NCBI RefSeq assembly: GCF_900106695.1
Contig: NZ_FNMZ01000002.1
Span: forward strand, 310,001 to 374,000
From: Albimonas donghaensis
GTDB taxonomy: Bacteria; Pseudomonadota; Alphaproteobacteria; Rhodobacterales; Rhodobacteraceae
Reading direction: 5' to 3'
Length of the DNA: 64,000 nucleotides
In this document: one piece after another, positions 16,353 to 47,525 of the stretch
Numbering within the stretch: the stretch's first letter is position 1
How the letters are laid out: every line of letters starts with the position of its first letter
Program-made: the position numbers and the translations under genes
Notes under the pieces: model-generated
Told to the model about the DNA's origin: nothing
Databases searched by the model: none
The model's input: the letters and a program-made list of their open reading frames with translations, nothing else

Positions 16353-16450
16353 TCGCCACCTTCCGCCAAGGCCCCCGCCTCGCCGTCGATTTGGCGCCGC
16401 GAACGGCGACTCGCAAGCGCGCTCCGGGGTCGCGGGGCGGGGGGCGGGGA

Positions 16451-16506
16451 GAGGAGGGGAGAGGAGGGGAGAGGAGGGGAGAGGAGGGGAGAGGAGGGGA
16501 GAGGAG
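16451..16506. repeat. 10-bp tandem repeat, five perfect units plus a partial
   Basis: GAGGAGGGGA is repeated five times without a mismatch (16451-16500), followed by GAGGAG; the preceding decamer is a degenerate copy. The array is a homopurine block on the plus strand and lies 99-154 bp upstream of the cell-wall hydrolase start, in its likely promoter region. Unit length is not a multiple of three. Confidence 0.9.
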
Positions 16507-16659
16507 CGGGGCGTGAAAGGCCACGGCCTGCGCGTCTTCAGGGAACATGAAAACGCGACCCGCGCAGGTCGCGCGCGGATCGCGTCGTTCTCCGGCCGCC
16601 GTCGCCCCCCCATCGGAGCTTCGGCGCCGGCGTGTCGCCCGGCCGTCACCGTCCCACGA

Positions 16660-20101: not shown

Positions 20102-20332
20102 GACGGTCTCCGGATGCTGCGGCCCCCGGCGGGAGGTCGGGGGCCGCAGCATAGGCTTGCGGGCGAGGGCGGCAAGGGGAGGAAGGCGCCGCGTCGGCGA
20201 TGCGCCGGCGGCGACCGGACGCCCGCGGCGCGCGGCGGCGGGGACGCTTGCGGAACCGTCTCGGGGCGCCGGGCGGGGGGATCGGGGCGGGGGAGCGCGC
20301 GGCGCGGGCGCGGCGGGCGCGGCCCGAACGAA

Positions 20333-35787: not shown

Positions 35788-36182
35788 CGCGGCGTCTCCG
35801 TTGGGGCGGGGCCGGGATGCGGCGCCGGGGCGGTCGCGTCAAGCCGGGGTTGGGCGCGGAGACGCAGGGAGGCGCCGCGCAGAGCGCGCGCGGGCGGCGA
35901 CGAGGCGCCCGCGGCGCGCGGAACCGGGGGCGCGGGGGGCGCCGTCGCCCGGCTCTCCCGGACGGGCCCTTGCAGATCAGCCCTCCGAGTCGAGCCCTCC
36001 GAGTCGGGGCCTCCGGGACGGGTCCCTGGGGGCCGGGCCCTGCGCCGGGGGCCACACGAGGACCGTACGGGGCGCGGTCCGGGCGCGGCAACCCCGCGCC
36101 GAAGGCGCCCGCCCGAAGGCCAGTCATGGCCGGAGAAGACGGCTCGCCCCGCAGGGGCTCCGCCGAAGTCCCGCCCGCGCCC
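35788..36182. other. Intergenic region prmA-msrA with two repeat elements
   Basis: 395 bp without a supported gene. It holds one copy of the 31-bp GC-rich repeat (35906-35936), a short tandem pair of AGCCCTCCGAGTCG near 35988-36015, and one copy of the 56-bp double-hairpin element (36112-36167), 15 bp from the msrA stop. Confidence 0.7.
36112..36167. repeat. 56-bp double-hairpin element, copy 1
   Basis: Layout: CCCGAAGGCC, 6-nt loop (AGTCAT), GGCCGGAGA, 8 variable bases, CGCCCCGCAGGGGC, then TCCGCCGAA. Two stems can form, one on AGGCC/GGCC(G) and one on GCCCC-GCA-GGGGC. The same order with the same spacing occurs at 39786-39841. Confidence 0.75.
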
Positions 36183-36830
36183 TCAGGCGCCGACGCCGAT
36201 CGGGCAGGTCACGCCGGTTCCGTCCACGCCGCAATAGCCGCCCGGATTCTTGGACAGGTATTGCTGGTGATAATCCTCGGCGAAGAAGAACGGGCCGGTG
36301 GGCTGGATCTCGGTCGTGATCCTGCCGTAGCCCGCCGCCTTCAGCCGCTGCTGGTAGGCGTCGCGCGAGGTCTCGGCCGCGATCTTCTGGCTGTCGCCGG
36401 AATAATAGATGCCCGAGCGGTACTGGCTGCCCACGTCATTGCCCTGGCGCATGCCCTGGGTCGGGTCGTGCCCCTCCCAGAAGGTCTGCAGGAGGCGGTC
36501 GTAGGAGATGACCGAGGGGTCGAAGGCCACCAGCACCGCCTCGGTGTGCCCGGTGCGGCCGGTGCAGATCTCGCGGTAGGTGGGGTTGGGGGTCAGCCCG
36601 GCGACATAGCCGACGGCGGTCACCCATACGCCATCGAGGGTCCAGAAGCGGCGCTCCACCCCCCAGAAACAGCCCATGGCGAAAACCGCGGTCTCGATCC
36701 CCTCGGGGAACGGACCCTGGAGCGGGCGTCCGGATACGTGGTGCAGTTCGGCGGTGGGGATCGGGTCGGGACGACCCGGCAGCGCGGTGGCGGCGGTCGG
36801 CAGGTCGTCGGCTTTGCGCATGAAAAACAT
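36183..36830 (-). CDS. msrA: Peptide methionine (S)-S-oxide reductase MsrA
   Basis: 215-residue enzyme that repairs the S-epimer of methionine sulfoxide. The catalytic motif GCFWG has Cys54; Glu and Tyr partners are in VERRFW and QYRSGIYY. Resolving cysteines are near the C-terminus in [19 protein letters not shown]. The N-terminal extension of about 45 residues is usual for the E. coli-type long form. GGAGGAGA precedes the ATG at 36830. Confidence 0.95.
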
Positions 36831-37228
36831 TCGGCGTCTCCTCCGGCGTGAGGCCCCAATGTAAGGGCTCGGGACGGTCCCGCCTAGCCCCACCCGCGAC
36901 AATTCGGCGCGAGGCGCGGCGGCGCGCGCCATCTCGCTGTCCTCGCGCCCCCCCCGCCGAGGGAGCGCCGCGTCCTCCGCCGCGCCCGTGGAGAACTTCC
37001 GCCCGCGGCGCGTCCAGCCCCTGGCGCCCGTGGCCAGGTCCCCAACCGGCGCCGCTCCCCCCGGTTCCGCCGGCGCCGCCCCCTCCGCGCGCCGCGGGCG
37101 TCCCGGTCCAACCCGCGGGCGGGTCGACGCGGCGCCCCGCAGGCGACCTGCGCCGGCCCGTCCCGCCGCGCGGAACATATAAAGAACGCCCCTTTCCCCG
37201 GCGCCCCGTCCGCGCTACCCTGCCGCCC
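36831..37228. other. Divergent intergenic region msrA-uvrD
   Basis: 398 bp with no supported gene despite open frames. It contains two copies of the CGCCCGCGGCGCG core repeat (37000-37012 plus orientation; 37085-37100 minus orientation). A TATAAA box (37178-37183), about 45 bp before the helicase start, is a possible -10 element; no -35 box is evident. Confidence 0.5.
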
Positions 37229-39622
37229 ATGACCTCCGCCTCAGATTTCGACGCCTTCGACGCGTTAGAGGACGCCGCCGAGATGTCCCTCTCGGCCCGC
37301 GCCATGGCCGCGCGGCCGACGCCCTATCTCGACGGGCTCAATCCGCCCCAGCGCGAGGCGGTGGAGACGCTGGACGGCCCGGTCCTGATGCTCGCCGGCG
37401 CGGGCACCGGCAAGACCCGCGCGCTCACCGCCCGCATCGCCCATATTCTCAACCAGGGCCGCGCCCGCCCGTGGGAGATCCTCGCCGTCACCTTCACCAA
37501 CAAGGCGGCGCGCGAGATGAAGCACCGGGTCGCGGACCTGATCGGCCAGCCGGCCGAGGGGATGCCCTGGCTCGGCACCTTCCACGCGCTCTGCGCCAAG
37601 ATGCTGCGCCGGCACGCGGAACTGGTCCACCTGAAGTCCAGCTTCTCGATCCTCGACACCGACGACCAGCTGCGCCTGATCAAGCAGATCCTCCAGGCCG
37701 AACAGATCGACGACAAGCGCTGGCCCCCGCGGATGATGGCGAGCCTCATCGACCGCTGGAAGAATCGCGGCTGGCGGCCCGAGCAGCTCCCCTCCGACGA
37801 GGCCCACGCCTTCAATCGGCGCGGGGGCGAGATCTACGCCATGTACCAGGCCCGCCTGCGCAGCCTGAACGCGGTGGATTTCGGCGACCTGCTGCTGCAC
37901 ATGATCACCATCTTCCAGACCCATCCGGACGTGCTGGAGCAATGGCGCCACCGCTTCCGCTACGTGCTGGTGGACGAGTATCAGGACACCAACGTCGCCC
38001 AGTATCTGTGGCTCCGCCTGCTGGCGGCGGGGTCGCGCAACATCTGCTGCGTGGGCGACGACGACCAGTCGATCTACGGCTGGCGCGGGGCGGAGGTCGG
38101 CAACATCCTCCGCTTCGAGAAGGACTTCCCCGGCGCCCGCGTCATCCGGCTGGAGCAGAACTACCGCTCCACCCCCCATATCCTCGCCGCCGCCACCTCG
38201 GTCATTCACGCCAACGAGGAACGCCTCGGCAAGAGCCTGTGGACCGAGGCGCACGAGGGCGAGAAGGTCCGCCTCATCGGCCATTGGGACGGGGAGGAGG
38301 AGGCCCGCTGGATCGGCGAGGAGATCGAATCCTTCCAGCGCGGAACCCGGGGCATCGCGCCCCTGGGGCTCGACTCCATGGCGATCCTGGTGCGCGCCGG
38401 CTTCCAGATGCGGGTGTTCGAGGACCGCTTCCTGACCATCGGCCTGCCCTACCGGGTCATCGGCGGCCCGCGCTTCTACGAACGGCGCGAGATCCGGGAC
38501 GCCATGGCCTATTTCCGGCTGGCGGTCTCGCCCGATGACGGGCTGGCCTTCGAGCGCGTCGTCAACAATCCCAAGCGCGGGATCGGCGACAAGGCGCAGC
38601 AGACCATCAACCTCACGGCGCGCGAAGGCGGGCTGACCCTGGTCGAGGGCGCCCGCGCGCTGGTCGCCTCCGGCGGGCTGACCGCCCGGCCGCGCAAGGC
38701 GCTGGGCCAGCTGATCGACGGCATCGACCGCTGGCACGCCGCCTGCGCGTCGGGCGCCGACCATATCGCGCTGGCCGAAACCATCCTGGATGAAAGCGGC
38801 TACACCGACATGTGGAAGGCCGACACCTCGCCCGAGGCGCCCGGCCGGCTGGAGAACCTGAAGGAACTGGTGAAGGCGCTGGACGGGTTCGAGAACCTGC
38901 AGGGCTTTCTCGAACATGTCAGCCTGGTGATGGACAACGAAAGCGATGACGGGACCGAGAAAGTCTCGATCATGACGCTGCACGCCGCCAAGGGGCTGGA
39001 GTTTCCGGCCGTGTTCCTGCCGGGATGGGAGGACGGTCTGTTCCCCTCGCAGCGGAGCATGGACGAGAGCGGGCTGAAGGGGCTGGAGGAGGAACGCCGC
39101 CTCGCCTATGTCGGCCTGACCCGCGCGCGCGAACATCTGGTGGTGAGCTTCGCCGCCAACCGCGCCATCTACGGCCGGTGGCAGAGCGCCCTGCCCTCCC
39201 GCTTCATCGACGAGCTTCCCGCCGACCATGTCGAGGTGCTGACCCCGCCGGGCCTGCACGGCCACCCGGCGGCGCGGGCGGCGGCGCAGGGCGCGGTGGG
39301 GAACATCCCCGGCGTCATGCGCGGCTCGGAGCTGGAGGAGCGGGCGACGCGCACCGACGCCTACAACTCGCCCGGCTGGCGCCGGATGCAGTCGCGGGCC
39401 GGAAAACGCCCGATGAGCCAGCCGCGGGACTCCGCGCATCTGGTGATCGACGCCGAGGCGATCCCGACTTTCGAGGTCGGCGTGCGGGTCTTCCACCAGA
39501 AATTCGGCTACGGCGCGGTGGAGGCGGTGGAGGGCGACAAGCTGACCGTCGCCTTCGAGAAGGCCGGAACCAAGCGCATCGTTGCGAAGTTCGTCACCGC
39601 CGCCGACGACGCGCCCTTCTGA
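37229..39622 (+). CDS. uvrD: UvrD/PcrA-family ATP-dependent 3'-5' DNA helicase
   Basis: 797-residue superfamily 1A helicase acting in nucleotide excision and mismatch repair and in clearing RNA polymerase. Motifs in order: Q-motif LNPPQREAVETLDGPVLMLA, I GAGTGKT, Ia VTFTNKAAREM, II LVDEYQDTN, III GDDDQSIYGWRGA, IV RLEQNYRST, V VSIMTLHAAKGLEFPAVFLP and VI EERRLAYVGLTRARE. The C-terminal Tudor-like domain (VFHQKFGYGAVEAVEGDKL) is the part that contacts RNA polymerase in PcrA/UvrD. The start at 37229 has no clear ribosome-binding site and a leader of perhaps 35 nt. Confidence 0.95.
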   Translation: MTSASDFDAFDALEDAAEMSLSARAMAARPTPYLDGLNPPQREAVETLDGPVLMLAGAGTGKTRALTARIAHILNQGRARPWEILAVTFTNKAAREMKHRVADLIGQPAEGMPWLGTFHALCAKMLRRHAELVHLKSSFSILDTDDQLRLIKQILQAEQIDDKRWPPRMMASLIDRWKNRGWRPEQLPSDEAHAFNRRGGEIYAMYQARLRSLNAVDFGDLLLHMITIFQTHPDVLEQWRHRFRYVLVDEYQDTNVAQYLWLRLLAAGSRNICCVGDDDQSIYGWRGAEVGNILRFEKDFPGARVIRLEQNYRSTPHILAAATSVIHANEERLGKSLWTEAHEGEKVRLIGHWDGEEEARWIGEEIESFQRGTRGIAPLGLDSMAILVRAGFQMRVFEDRFLTIGLPYRVIGGPRFYERREIRDAMAYFRLAVSPDDGLAFERVVNNPKRGIGDKAQQTINLTAREGGLTLVEGARALVASGGLTARPRKALGQLIDGIDRWHAACASGADHIALAETILDESGYTDMWKADTSPEAPGRLENLKELVKALDGFENLQGFLEHVSLVMDNESDDGTEKVSIMTLHAAKGLEFPAVFLPGWEDGLFPSQRSMDESGLKGLEEERRLAYVGLTRAREHLVVSFAANRAIYGRWQSALPSRFIDELPADHVEVLTPPGLHGHPAARAAAQGAVGNIPGVMRGSELEERATRTDAYNSPGWRRMQSRAGKRPMSQPRDSAHLVIDAEAIPTFEVGVRVFHQKFGYGAVEAVEGDKLTVAFEKAGTKRIVAKFVTAADDAPF

Positions 39623-39910
39623 ACCCGCCCGCGCGGCCCCGCGGTTCCAACGCCGCGCGCCGACCCGCGCGCCGGCGGCCCCCTCGCGCCCGCGCGGCCC
39701 AGAGCCGGAAGCGCACGCGGCGCCGTCTCCAGCCGGCCGGCCGCGCCGCGAACATGCAGGCGTCCCCGCCGCCGGACGCGGCAGACCCGAAGGCCGCTTG
39801 CGGCCGGAGACATGGGAACGCCCCGCAGGGGCGCCGCCGAATTCCGCTCCGCCGCAATCAGGTCGCGCCGGCGCCGTGACCTCGCCCCCGGACGTGCTAC
39901 CTTCCCGCGC
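39623..39910. other. Intergenic region uvrD-cls with 56-bp element
   Basis: 288 bp with very high GC and no gene. The 56-bp double-hairpin element (copy 2, 39786-39841) ends 69 bp before the cls start. No terminator with a T-run is visible after uvrD. Confidence 0.6.
39786..39841. repeat. 56-bp double-hairpin element, copy 2
   Basis: Same architecture as 36112-36167: CCCGAAGGCC, loop GCTTGC, GGCCGGAGA, 8 variable bases, CGCCCCGCAGGGGC, GCCGCCGAA. Stem sequences are identical to copy 1; the differences are in the loop, the 8-base spacer and one 3' base. Confidence 0.75.
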
Positions 39911-41152
39911 ATGACCCTGATCGACGCCTCGCCCGCCGCGCCGCCCCGACCGCGCCATCCGATCCCGCCGCGTCCCGATCCCGGAGCGCGACGCCTGGCG
40001 CTCGCGCTCGAAAGCGCGCTGGGCACGCCGTTCTCGCCGGGCAACCGGGTCGACGTGCTGCGCAACGGGGACCAGATCTTCCCCGCCATGCTCGACGCCA
40101 TCGCCGCCGCCCGGCGGCGCATCGAGTTCCTCACCTTCGTCTACTGGCAGGGCGAGATCGCCGAGCGCTTCGCCGAAGCCCTCGCCGCCCGCGCCCGCGA
40201 CGGGGTGGAGACGCTGGTGGTGCTGGACGGGTTCGGCGCGCGGCCGATGAGCTCGAACCTGGTGACCCTGATGCAGGACGCCGGCGTGCAGGTGCGCTGG
40301 TTCCGCCCCCTGCCGCGCCTCAAGCTCTGGCAATCCGACAACCGCACCCACCGCAAGGCGCTGATCATCGACGGGCGCGTGGGCTTCACCGGCGGCGTCG
40401 GGATCGCGGCGGAATGGGAGGGGAACGCCGACGGGCCGGACCATTGGCGCGACACCCATTTCCGCATCCGGGGCCCGGCGGTGGCCGGCCTTCGGGCCGC
40501 GTTCTACGAAGACTGGATGGAATCGGGCGGCGATCTCGGCCCCTTGTTCACCGTGGCCCCGACCCCAACGCGCGTCCGCCCCGGCGTGGACGAAACCGGC
40601 GGGACGCTGGCTCAGGTGGCGCCGGCGGGGGCCTCGGTCGGGCTGAACTCCATCGCCCGGCTGCACAACGCGCTGATCCGGCTGGCGCGCCGGCGGCTGC
40701 GCATCTGCACGCCCTATTTCTCCCCCGACCAGACCATGGCCGACCTGCTGGAGGCCGCGGCCAGGCGCGGCGTCGAGGTGCAGGTGATGATGCCCGGCCC
40801 GATCATCGACAAGCGCCTGTCCGAGCTTGCCGGCGCCGAGCACTGGGAACGGCTGATGGCCGCCGGCGTCACGCTGATGCAGTATCAGCCGACGATGCTG
40901 CACGCCAAGCTGATCACCATCGACGGGCGGCTGGCCTCGATCGGGTCGGCCAATTTCAACCAGCGCTCGCGGCTCAAGGATCACGAAGTGGCGGTGAACC
41001 TGCTGGACGCGGAGATGTGCGCCCTGCTCGACGGCCATTTCGAGCAGGACCTCGAACTCTGCGAGCCGGTCTGCCCGCGGCGCTGGGGCAGGCGGTCGAT
41101 GCTGCGCCGGGCGCTGGAAGCCGCGGCGTCGCCGCTGCGCTCCCAGGCCTGA
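39911..41152 (+). CDS. cls: Cardiolipin synthase-like phospholipase D family enzyme
   Basis: 413-residue member of the PLD superfamily with two HKD motifs: THRKALIIDGRVGFTGG near residue 150 and MLHAKLITIDGRLASIGSAN near 325. This fits cardiolipin synthase (ClsB/ClsC type), which transfers phosphatidyl groups between phosphatidylglycerol molecules. No strong N-terminal membrane helices are present, unlike ClsA; the ClsB-like class is therefore more likely. The ATG at 39911 is used; the frame is open upstream but without homology. Confidence 0.85.
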   Translation: MTLIDASPAAPPRPRHPIPPRPDPGARRLALALESALGTPFSPGNRVDVLRNGDQIFPAMLDAIAAARRRIEFLTFVYWQGEIAERFAEALAARARDGVETLVVLDGFGARPMSSNLVTLMQDAGVQVRWFRPLPRLKLWQSDNRTHRKALIIDGRVGFTGGVGIAAEWEGNADGPDHWRDTHFRIRGPAVAGLRAAFYEDWMESGGDLGPLFTVAPTPTRVRPGVDETGGTLAQVAPAGASVGLNSIARLHNALIRLARRRLRICTPYFSPDQTMADLLEAAARRGVEVQVMMPGPIIDKRLSELAGAEHWERLMAAGVTLMQYQPTMLHAKLITIDGRLASIGSANFNQRSRLKDHEVAVNLLDAEMCALLDGHFEQDLELCEPVCPRRWGRRSMLRRALEAAASPLRSQA

Positions 41153-47312: not shown

Positions 47313-47482
47313 CCCGCGCCCCCGGTCCCGCGCGCCGCGGGCGCGAGGGCGCGGCCTGGCGCCCCCTCGACGCGGCGCCTCGGTCCCGACGGGACGCGCG
47401 GGCGGCGGGCGAGGGAGCGCCGCGACGACCCGGACGCAGGCCGCGGCCGGACGCCCGCGGCGCGCGGGACCGGGGGCGCGGG
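47313..47482. repeat. Perfect 31-bp inverted repeat pair in the trpF-hydrolase gap
   Basis: The arms 47313-47343 and 47452-47482 are exact reverse complements, separated by 108 bp. Each arm begins (in one orientation) with CGCCCGCGGCGCGCG and ends GGGGGCGCGGG. The same 31-mer occurs with one mismatch at 35906-35936. The 322-bp gap (47204-47525) holds no gene. Read as RNA, the arms would make a very stable long hairpin. Confidence 0.9.
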
Positions 47483-47525
47483 CGGAAAGGTCCGCGGTCC
47501 CACGGCATCACGAAACAGGAAGGTC

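Follow-up and report, generated by a model that had tools for sequence, protein, structure and literature searches.

A two-hairpin element dispersed in the genome of Albimonas donghaensis, with relatives behind genes and tRNAs in other Rhodobacteraceae

The window analysed here, a 64,000-nucleotide stretch of the Albimonas donghaensis genome (contig NZ_FNMZ01000002.1, positions 310,001 to 374,000), contains two copies of a short element in which two hairpins, H1 and H2, are joined by a linker. Copy 1 lies behind msrA, and copy 2 in the spacer between two plus-strand genes, uvrD and a PLD-domain gene. An earlier reading of this DNA from its letters alone (the sequence-only reading) had described stem blocks that are identical and equally spaced in the two copies; accordingly, the pattern CCCGAAGGCC-N6-GGCCGGAGA-N8-CGCCCCGCAGGGGC is matched exactly at 36112 and 39786 on the plus strand, with the same spacing. 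When up to three mismatches were allowed, this pattern had two matches in the window versus none in 100 shuffles, ruling out a chance pair as the origin of the two copies. The features of the locus are listed below; E-values of the copies are those of R1, a covariance model introduced further on.

36096..36108, minus strand: possible third hairpin behind H1 of copy 1, GCGCC-TTC-GGCGC, assigned tentatively by sequence and absent from the lowest-energy fold
36112..36164, minus strand: copy 1, in the canonical arrangement; order in msrA sense: stop, 18 nt, H2, linker, H1, TTCGGG; E 1.0e-14
36118..36131, minus strand: H1 of copy 1, GGCCA-TGAC-TGGCC in msrA sense, the A-U variant of a covarying pair (plus strand folded)
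36132..36145, minus strand: linker of copy 1, GAGCCGTCTTCTCC in msrA sense
36146..36158, minus strand: H2 of copy 1, GCCCC-TGC-GGGGC in msrA sense, from sequence and fold
36183..36830, minus strand: msrA, peptide methionine sulfoxide reductase (Pfam PF01625, E 1.8e-61), its stop 18 nt from copy 1
37229..39622, plus strand: UvrD/REP-type helicase gene (PF00580, E 1.8e-92, and PF13361), its stop 163 nt before copy 2
39786..39838, minus strand like copy 1: copy 2, with no same-sense gene end on its H2 side; E 7.3e-19
39792..39805, minus strand: H1 of copy 2, GGCCG-CAAG-CGGCC
39806..39819, minus strand: linker of copy 2, GTTCCCATGTCTCC; the tail count below takes it one letter shorter, its first G being assigned to H2
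39820..39832, minus strand: H2 of copy 2, GCCCC-TGC-GGGGC
39911..41152, plus strand: PLD-domain gene, cls-like (PF13091, E 1.5e-38), its start 72 nt after copy 2

The 6-nt loops of the two copies had been called completely different and free. They differ at only five of six positions (AGTCAT versus GCTTGC), and their outer letters covary as a pair (A-T in copy 1, G-C in copy 2), which makes the stem of H1 5 bp long and leaves a loop of 4 nt. As for the gene ends near each copy, the msrA stop is 18 nt from copy 1, while copy 2 is 163 nt from the uvrD stop and 72 nt from the start of the PLD-domain gene (the cls of the sequence-only reading). Given their composition, the two copies fold as single strands with unremarkable energies (z -0.58 to 0.47), and the case for the element therefore rests on comparison and not on energy.

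The A. donghaensis genome (5.0 Mb in 30 contigs) contains 26 clear copies of this [hairpin H1]-linker-[hairpin H2] element, dispersed and none of them inside a called gene. A pattern search recovered nine copies, against none for a reversed-pattern control, and R1, built from these nine, gave 38 matches at E-values up to 1, of which 26 lay at or below 1.1e-4 and the next at 0.037. A second model built from all 26 (R2) recovered the identical set, its next match being at E 0.25, and a third (R3), built from 32 copies that included relatives, added one candidate match at E 0.006. The sequence-only reading had proposed such a covariance-model search, and would have been contradicted by an absence of further copies or by broken stems; the search returned 24 further clear copies, and 96.8% of the pair cells over the 26 copies are paired.

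This degree of pairing compares with 89.7% in shuffles, and two-sided changes occur at five of the 11 pairs, in 15 cells (1.6 and 2.8 in shuffles). Neither value was reached by any of 500 shuffles, and at most 51.0% of cells were paired when partners were slid. The outer loop pair of H1 is A-U in three of these copies and G-C in 23. When copies from relatives were included (61 in total), two-sided changes were found at ten of 11 pairs, in 109 cells. Of all cells, 96.2% are paired, compared with 74.2% in shuffles, and sliding the partners never gave more than 52.2%. Having been fitted to the structure, this alignment is biased towards pairing, and its A. donghaensis rows are related by copying. 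Nevertheless, differences such as GTTGC/GCAAC, GACCC/GGGTC and GCGCC/GGCGC in relatives against GGCCC/GGGCC would be hard to explain by alignment fitting or by kinship of rows. Structural conservation, which the sequence-only reading had suggested should be checked for compensatory changes, is thereby borne out both within the genome and across genera, and the comparison shows that the two hairpins are maintained by compensatory change at both levels. A further candidate, a GGAG-CUCC closing helix, was dropped by eye, as one side varies without pairing.

The exact type of the element looks confined to the A. donghaensis genome. Its core pattern CGGCCGGAGAYRWRGGMAYGCCC had no match in 84,980 species genomes, a collection that may not contain this genome, and R1 at E 1e-4 over 394 family genomes found only A. 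donghaensis and one weak match, with 14 candidates scored per genome. With many genomes per search, the model searches scored only 14 or 38 candidates per genome, which makes their absences weak. At E 0.003-0.008, R1 matched three near-identical copies in genome G005 and one in G024. In two congeners, G001 and G002, an acyl-CoA dehydrogenase gene is followed by a copy that R2 detected (L173, E 0.0015, and L176, E 0.016); these matches are weak when taken alone, and in G002 a match in a coding frame (L174) outscored the accepted L176, but they are credible because the same gene precedes both. R3 added a second copy in each congener, L213, behind a near-identical dehydrogenase gene, and L214. 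Since the training set of R3 included copies from G005, G024, G001 and G002, its matches there are not independent; G411-G417 (of the same genus as G005), G009, G068, G079, G105, G106, G128 and G130 lay outside it.

Around G005, R3 at E 0.05 had matches in nine of 40 genomes, including six of the eight of G005's own genus (g4), which contributed 33 matches, 28 of them taken as loci and counted. At E 0.01, matches occurred in 12 of 150 family genomes, A. donghaensis and G005 included; two of these were judged false (G013 and G101, coding frames) and G085 was left undecided. Matches were left out if they were short, fell in a coding frame or, judged by eye, missed a part of the element, namely L040, L043-L048, L051, L174, L175, L177-L184 and L052 (G162) for R1 and R2, and for R3 the coding-frame matches L190 (G013), L192 (G020) and L220 (G101), together with L224 (G085). 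In L224 the model match stops inside H1, and the copy may be real, a longer H1 being readable beyond the match. L215 and L216 (G024) were kept despite E-values of 0.03-0.04. Divergent relatives of the element are, on these searches, sparse elsewhere in the family.

The msrA loci of 26 relatives (80 fetched) gave three matches, none better than E 0.35. The orthologous msrA-prmA spacers of the two congeners lack the element, have a different long hairpin instead and align poorly. This is a long nested hairpin (L065:1059-1223 and L066:1198-1361) with arms of 31 and 27 nt that are 90-100% complementary; its stems differ between the two species yet match within each, and the spacer it occupies is the one that holds copy 1 in A. 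donghaensis. Across other loci, a scan with a hairpin descriptor returned 61 matches.

Searches against Rfam at its curated threshold returned nothing in the window or in five relatives' loci (L049, L173, L041, L187 and L204), and the sole match of the A. donghaensis copy L010 at E-values up to 5 was to a Pyrobaculum sRNA family, scoring 16.9 bits where the threshold is 59; the idea of a known RNA family was dropped on these grounds. Judged by title and abstract, the literature on REP (repetitive extragenic palindromic) elements, Rhodobacterales repeats and Rhodobacter terminators and RNases does not describe the element, and an earlier description is possible.

The relatives reveal the sense in which the element is arranged. 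On the strand opposite to that of the sequence-only reading, the order is stop codon, H2, a pyrimidine-rich linker ending in YCTC, and H1. A long same-sense frame ends -6 to 14 nt from the element in 30 of 46 relatives' copies, and a tRNA-Ala(CGC) gene lies 11-12 nt before four copies (L185, L193, L201 and L203); L203 is counted in both groups, its frame being a doubtful one of 79 codons. Of the 27 copies examined in genus g4, 12 also face a convergent frame, whose end is 35-41 nt past the element. A. donghaensis shows the same preference for stops: 11 of 26 copies have a same-sense stop no more than 40 nt from their H2 side, versus 8.7% expected for copies placed at random in 250 spacers (P 5e-6). 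The mirror-image arrangement (2 of 26 versus 8.8% expected) occurs at the level of chance. From these loci it can be concluded that order, linker and closeness of H2 to a stop or tRNA 3' end recur across genera.

The genes that carry the element could be identified for 11 of 51 listed carrier frames. They are msrA, ftsK, a transport permease and a LuxR-type response regulator in A. donghaensis; acyl-CoA dehydrogenase in the congeners; and biotin carboxylase, pheT, 5-formyltetrahydrofolate (5-FTHF) cyclo-ligase, RNase J, pta and a LysR regulator in g4. When the carrier frames were compared all against all, every similar pair came from inside g4 or from inside the congeners. That the identified carriers are unrelated speaks for a general 3'-end part and not for a regulon.

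We then counted T residues in the 8 nt that follow H2 in the sense of the transcript, for the 68 of 72 copies that could be parsed (strict stems skipped L208, L211, L199 and L229). Five or more T were present in 18 of 24 copies in g4, six of 14 in other genera, one of four in the congeners and two of 26 in A. donghaensis; behind the same hairpin on the opposite strand, taken as control, one copy each in g4 and in the other genera reached this number. A terminator scan names H2 with GCTTTATGTC in L042, and in L173 it finds a separate terminator, GGGGGC-TTTTT, behind H1. In one genus, H2 followed by GCTTTATRTCTC looks like an intrinsic terminator. The linker is about 12-16 nt long, and YCTC is retained in it in 22 of 26 A. 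donghaensis rows and all 35 rows from relatives (57 of 61); in most copies, H1 is followed by UUCGGG or UCGGG. The element resembles intrinsic (Rho-independent) terminators, tandem ones included, in having a GC-rich hairpin and T-rich tail behind stops and tRNAs, in g4 and some others; it differs from them in its second conserved hairpin, the YCTC of its linker and its dispersal as a repeat, and in that 24 of 26 A. donghaensis copies have fewer than five T.

In g4, 26 of 28 copies are followed within 45 nt by a GCCTNCGGC motif (one of 26 in A. donghaensis), and an ATTT-type run follows, at the same distance, also in 26 of 28 (three of 26). These loci, for example L049, L042 and L204, mostly have an extra small hairpin with ATATTT and tail behind H1, GCCTGCGGCGCGGATATTT and variants, in 26 of 28 copies, which may be a widespread transcript-end motif of its own.

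The element has also multiplied unevenly. At equal threshold there are 27 matches in A. donghaensis versus two and two in the congeners. L010 and L011, at unrelated sites, are identical except for one of 53 positions, and four neighbour pairs fall within 4 kb of each other, where uniform placement would give 0.5 (P 0.001). A hairpin of the CCCTCTCCCC/GGGGAGAGGG type stands before eight copies, in a shorter form in L020; 464 kb of A. donghaensis DNA contained four such units, three beside the element by a script test and the fourth at L016, which is also a copy. Four of the eight (L019, L022, L023 and L032) share a stretch of about 250-300 bp with the double hairpin at its end. Most of this stretch, without the double hairpin, was used as a query and gave ten matches in A. 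donghaensis, three of which (C12:469743, C28:104011 and C28:124494) cover the far module only and lie away from the 26 copies. The congeners gave 12 and 32 matches, all in the far module and many covering query positions 28-72 alone.

The reading that we favour, and to which we give about an even chance, is that the element is an RNA 3'-end cassette, either a terminator or a protector of messages, which in A. donghaensis has also spread as a REP-like repeat, partly within mosaics. An RNA element is favoured by where the copies lie, by the pyrimidine-rich tail and by the terminator-like form seen in relatives, with a protein-bound DNA hairpin as the possible alternative. In the transcript, a stop codon or tRNA end would be followed by H2, a pyrimidine-rich linker with YCTC near its end, H1 and UUCGGG or UCGGG. 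H2 with its tail could stop RNA polymerase or, alternatively, H2 together with H1 could block 3' exonucleases; either way, the end of the transcript would be set and protected. In the very GC-rich host lineage, most copies lack the T-rich tail, and the likelier role there would be protection, or a stop assisted by a factor. The element would in addition be copied around the genome, as its high copy number in one species, the near-identical copies at unrelated sites, the clustering and the mosaics suggest.

Several observations weigh against this reading. Half of the A. donghaensis copies (13 of 26), copy 2 included, have no same-sense gene end on the H2 side, a tail of at least five T in 8 nt is present in only two of 26, and no copy of any group has such a tail behind H1. 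The terminator scan finds nothing around either window copy. Moreover, many RNA stems hold wobble pairs with a strand preference, whereas non-Watson-Crick pairs are rare here (19 of 828 stem pairs), and the 11 G-U against eight A-C pairs give no strand signal. Missing tails and a non-canonical half of the copies are what one would expect of an element that is spreading as a repeat as well. If the favoured reading is correct, this would be a covariation-backed structure for transcript ends in one bacterial family, absent from the RNA catalogue searched, and a part that is placed recurrently behind genes in several genera and that, in one GC-rich lineage, has become numerous as a dispersed repeat. 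As the same element occurs in both settings, the question of whether such palindromes are parasites or 3'-end parts becomes testable.

A possible but more doubtful explanation is that the element is REP-like non-autonomous mobile DNA, its hairpins kept for an enzyme acting on single-stranded DNA, with gene ends as tolerated insertion sites and no role as RNA. Its dispersal outside called genes, its excess over the congeners, the clustering, the near-identical copies at unrelated sites and the eight copies joined to a second repeat unit speak for this, as does the scarcity of wobble pairs in either sense. PMC3733652 also reports that REPs prefer the spacers between unidirectional and between convergent genes. 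Against it stand the orientation and distance to stops and tRNA ends that recur in relatives, a T-rich tail on one strand, and the same acyl-CoA dehydrogenase gene carrying the element in two congeners (L173, L213 and L176). Furthermore, the Y1/RAYT transposase domain PF01797 was not found in the A. donghaensis genome (98% complete), while five of 14 control genomes were positive; a family that had lost its transposase would likewise score zero. As the aligned A. donghaensis copies contain no GTAG either, a GTAG-class REP/RAYT system was rejected.

REP elements are nonetheless the nearest described kind. The REP/BIME repeats of enterobacteria are palindromes of 3' untranslated regions (3' UTRs) that form mosaics and are thought to block exonucleases; the likeness to such 3'-end stabilisers is one of description only, in a genome in which no RAYT gene was found. 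A closer comparison is offered by the CGTC-class REPs of Alphaproteobacteria, which, according to Di Nocera et al. 2013 (PMC3733652), have a CGTC (also TGTC or CCTC) tag directly at a stem of 8-9 bp that almost always starts with a complementary A-T, a CCA-like unpaired tail and mostly a head-to-head dimer arrangement. Measured against that description, the element shares short dispersed intergenic hairpins, complementary stem changes, the lack of an associated transposase and, in many linkers, CGTC, TGTC or CCTC strings before H1. It differs in that TC, TCC or C usually stands between the tag-like string and H1, H1 lacks the A-T start (57 of 58 scored rows have G-C or C-G as its first pair), and H1 is followed in most copies by TTCGGG or TCGGG and not by a CCA tail. 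Likewise, its two unlike hairpins stand in fixed order, not as a head-to-head dimer, and recur behind stops in relatives.

It is also conceivable, although we consider it unlikely, that this is a family-wide Rhodobacteraceae-type RNA element in 3' UTRs and behind tRNA genes, whose covarying hairpins would present a single-stranded YUUUGUCUC linker to an RNA or protein partner and which became a self-spreading repeat in one lineage. Such an element would be a common handle on many unrelated transcripts for 3'-end processing or decay.

We regard it as quite improbable that the YUUUGUCUC linker, whose UCUC/CUCC is complementary to GGAG, is a regulatory site through which a trans-acting RNA or protein binds and controls the carrier genes. 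The YCTC on the 3' side of the linker is kept beyond what a terminator tail needs, in the rows counted above, but part of this conservation arises by construction because the linker belonged to the models that found the copies. The identified carriers have no evident common function, the comparison matched no carrier between A. donghaensis and other genomes, and the element also lies behind tRNA-Ala. The Cuckoo/CcsR-type small RNAs of Rhodobacter, which are alphaproteobacterial and have hairpins and unpaired CUCC-type stretches, can be set beside the element by description; Rfam gave no match, though it may not include that family.

Finally, it is very unlikely that the stems were matched by replication error (quasi-palindrome correction through template switching) and copying between repeats with no selection on structure, which would leave nearly all pairs Watson-Crick, as observed, and stems more alike within than between genomes, as they seem by eye, but would not explain the conserved unpaired YCTC, the fixed order of unlike hairpins or the position behind stops.

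A plasmid or phage origin was rejected, as a distant blastn search with copy 2 gave only partial, weak matches to 12 plasmid and three phage records, none covering 80%, and blastn of a relative's copy gave no plasmid match. The GC skew of 21 stretches was too weak to assign the orientation of the element to a replication strand. By contig, orientation looks biased: four of four copies are on the minus strand in C16, all are on the plus strand in C13 and C9 (three each) and in C14 and C17 (two each), and C12 has seven plus and three minus.

Some other repeats were observed. The mosaic repeat joined to element copies is represented by L022:1265-1500 (about 235 bp; A. donghaensis, G001 and G002 searched), and its far module (about query 11-138) shares by eye a GGTCAAGG...TCGCGAAGCGACC core with the long hairpin of L065 and L066. 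The window itself contains overlapping 10-bp tandem units GGGGAGAGGA at 16436-16509 (family D5), and three GC-rich stretches at 20180-20267, 35866-35953 and 47412-47499 that are 65-73% alike to the reference (family D3).

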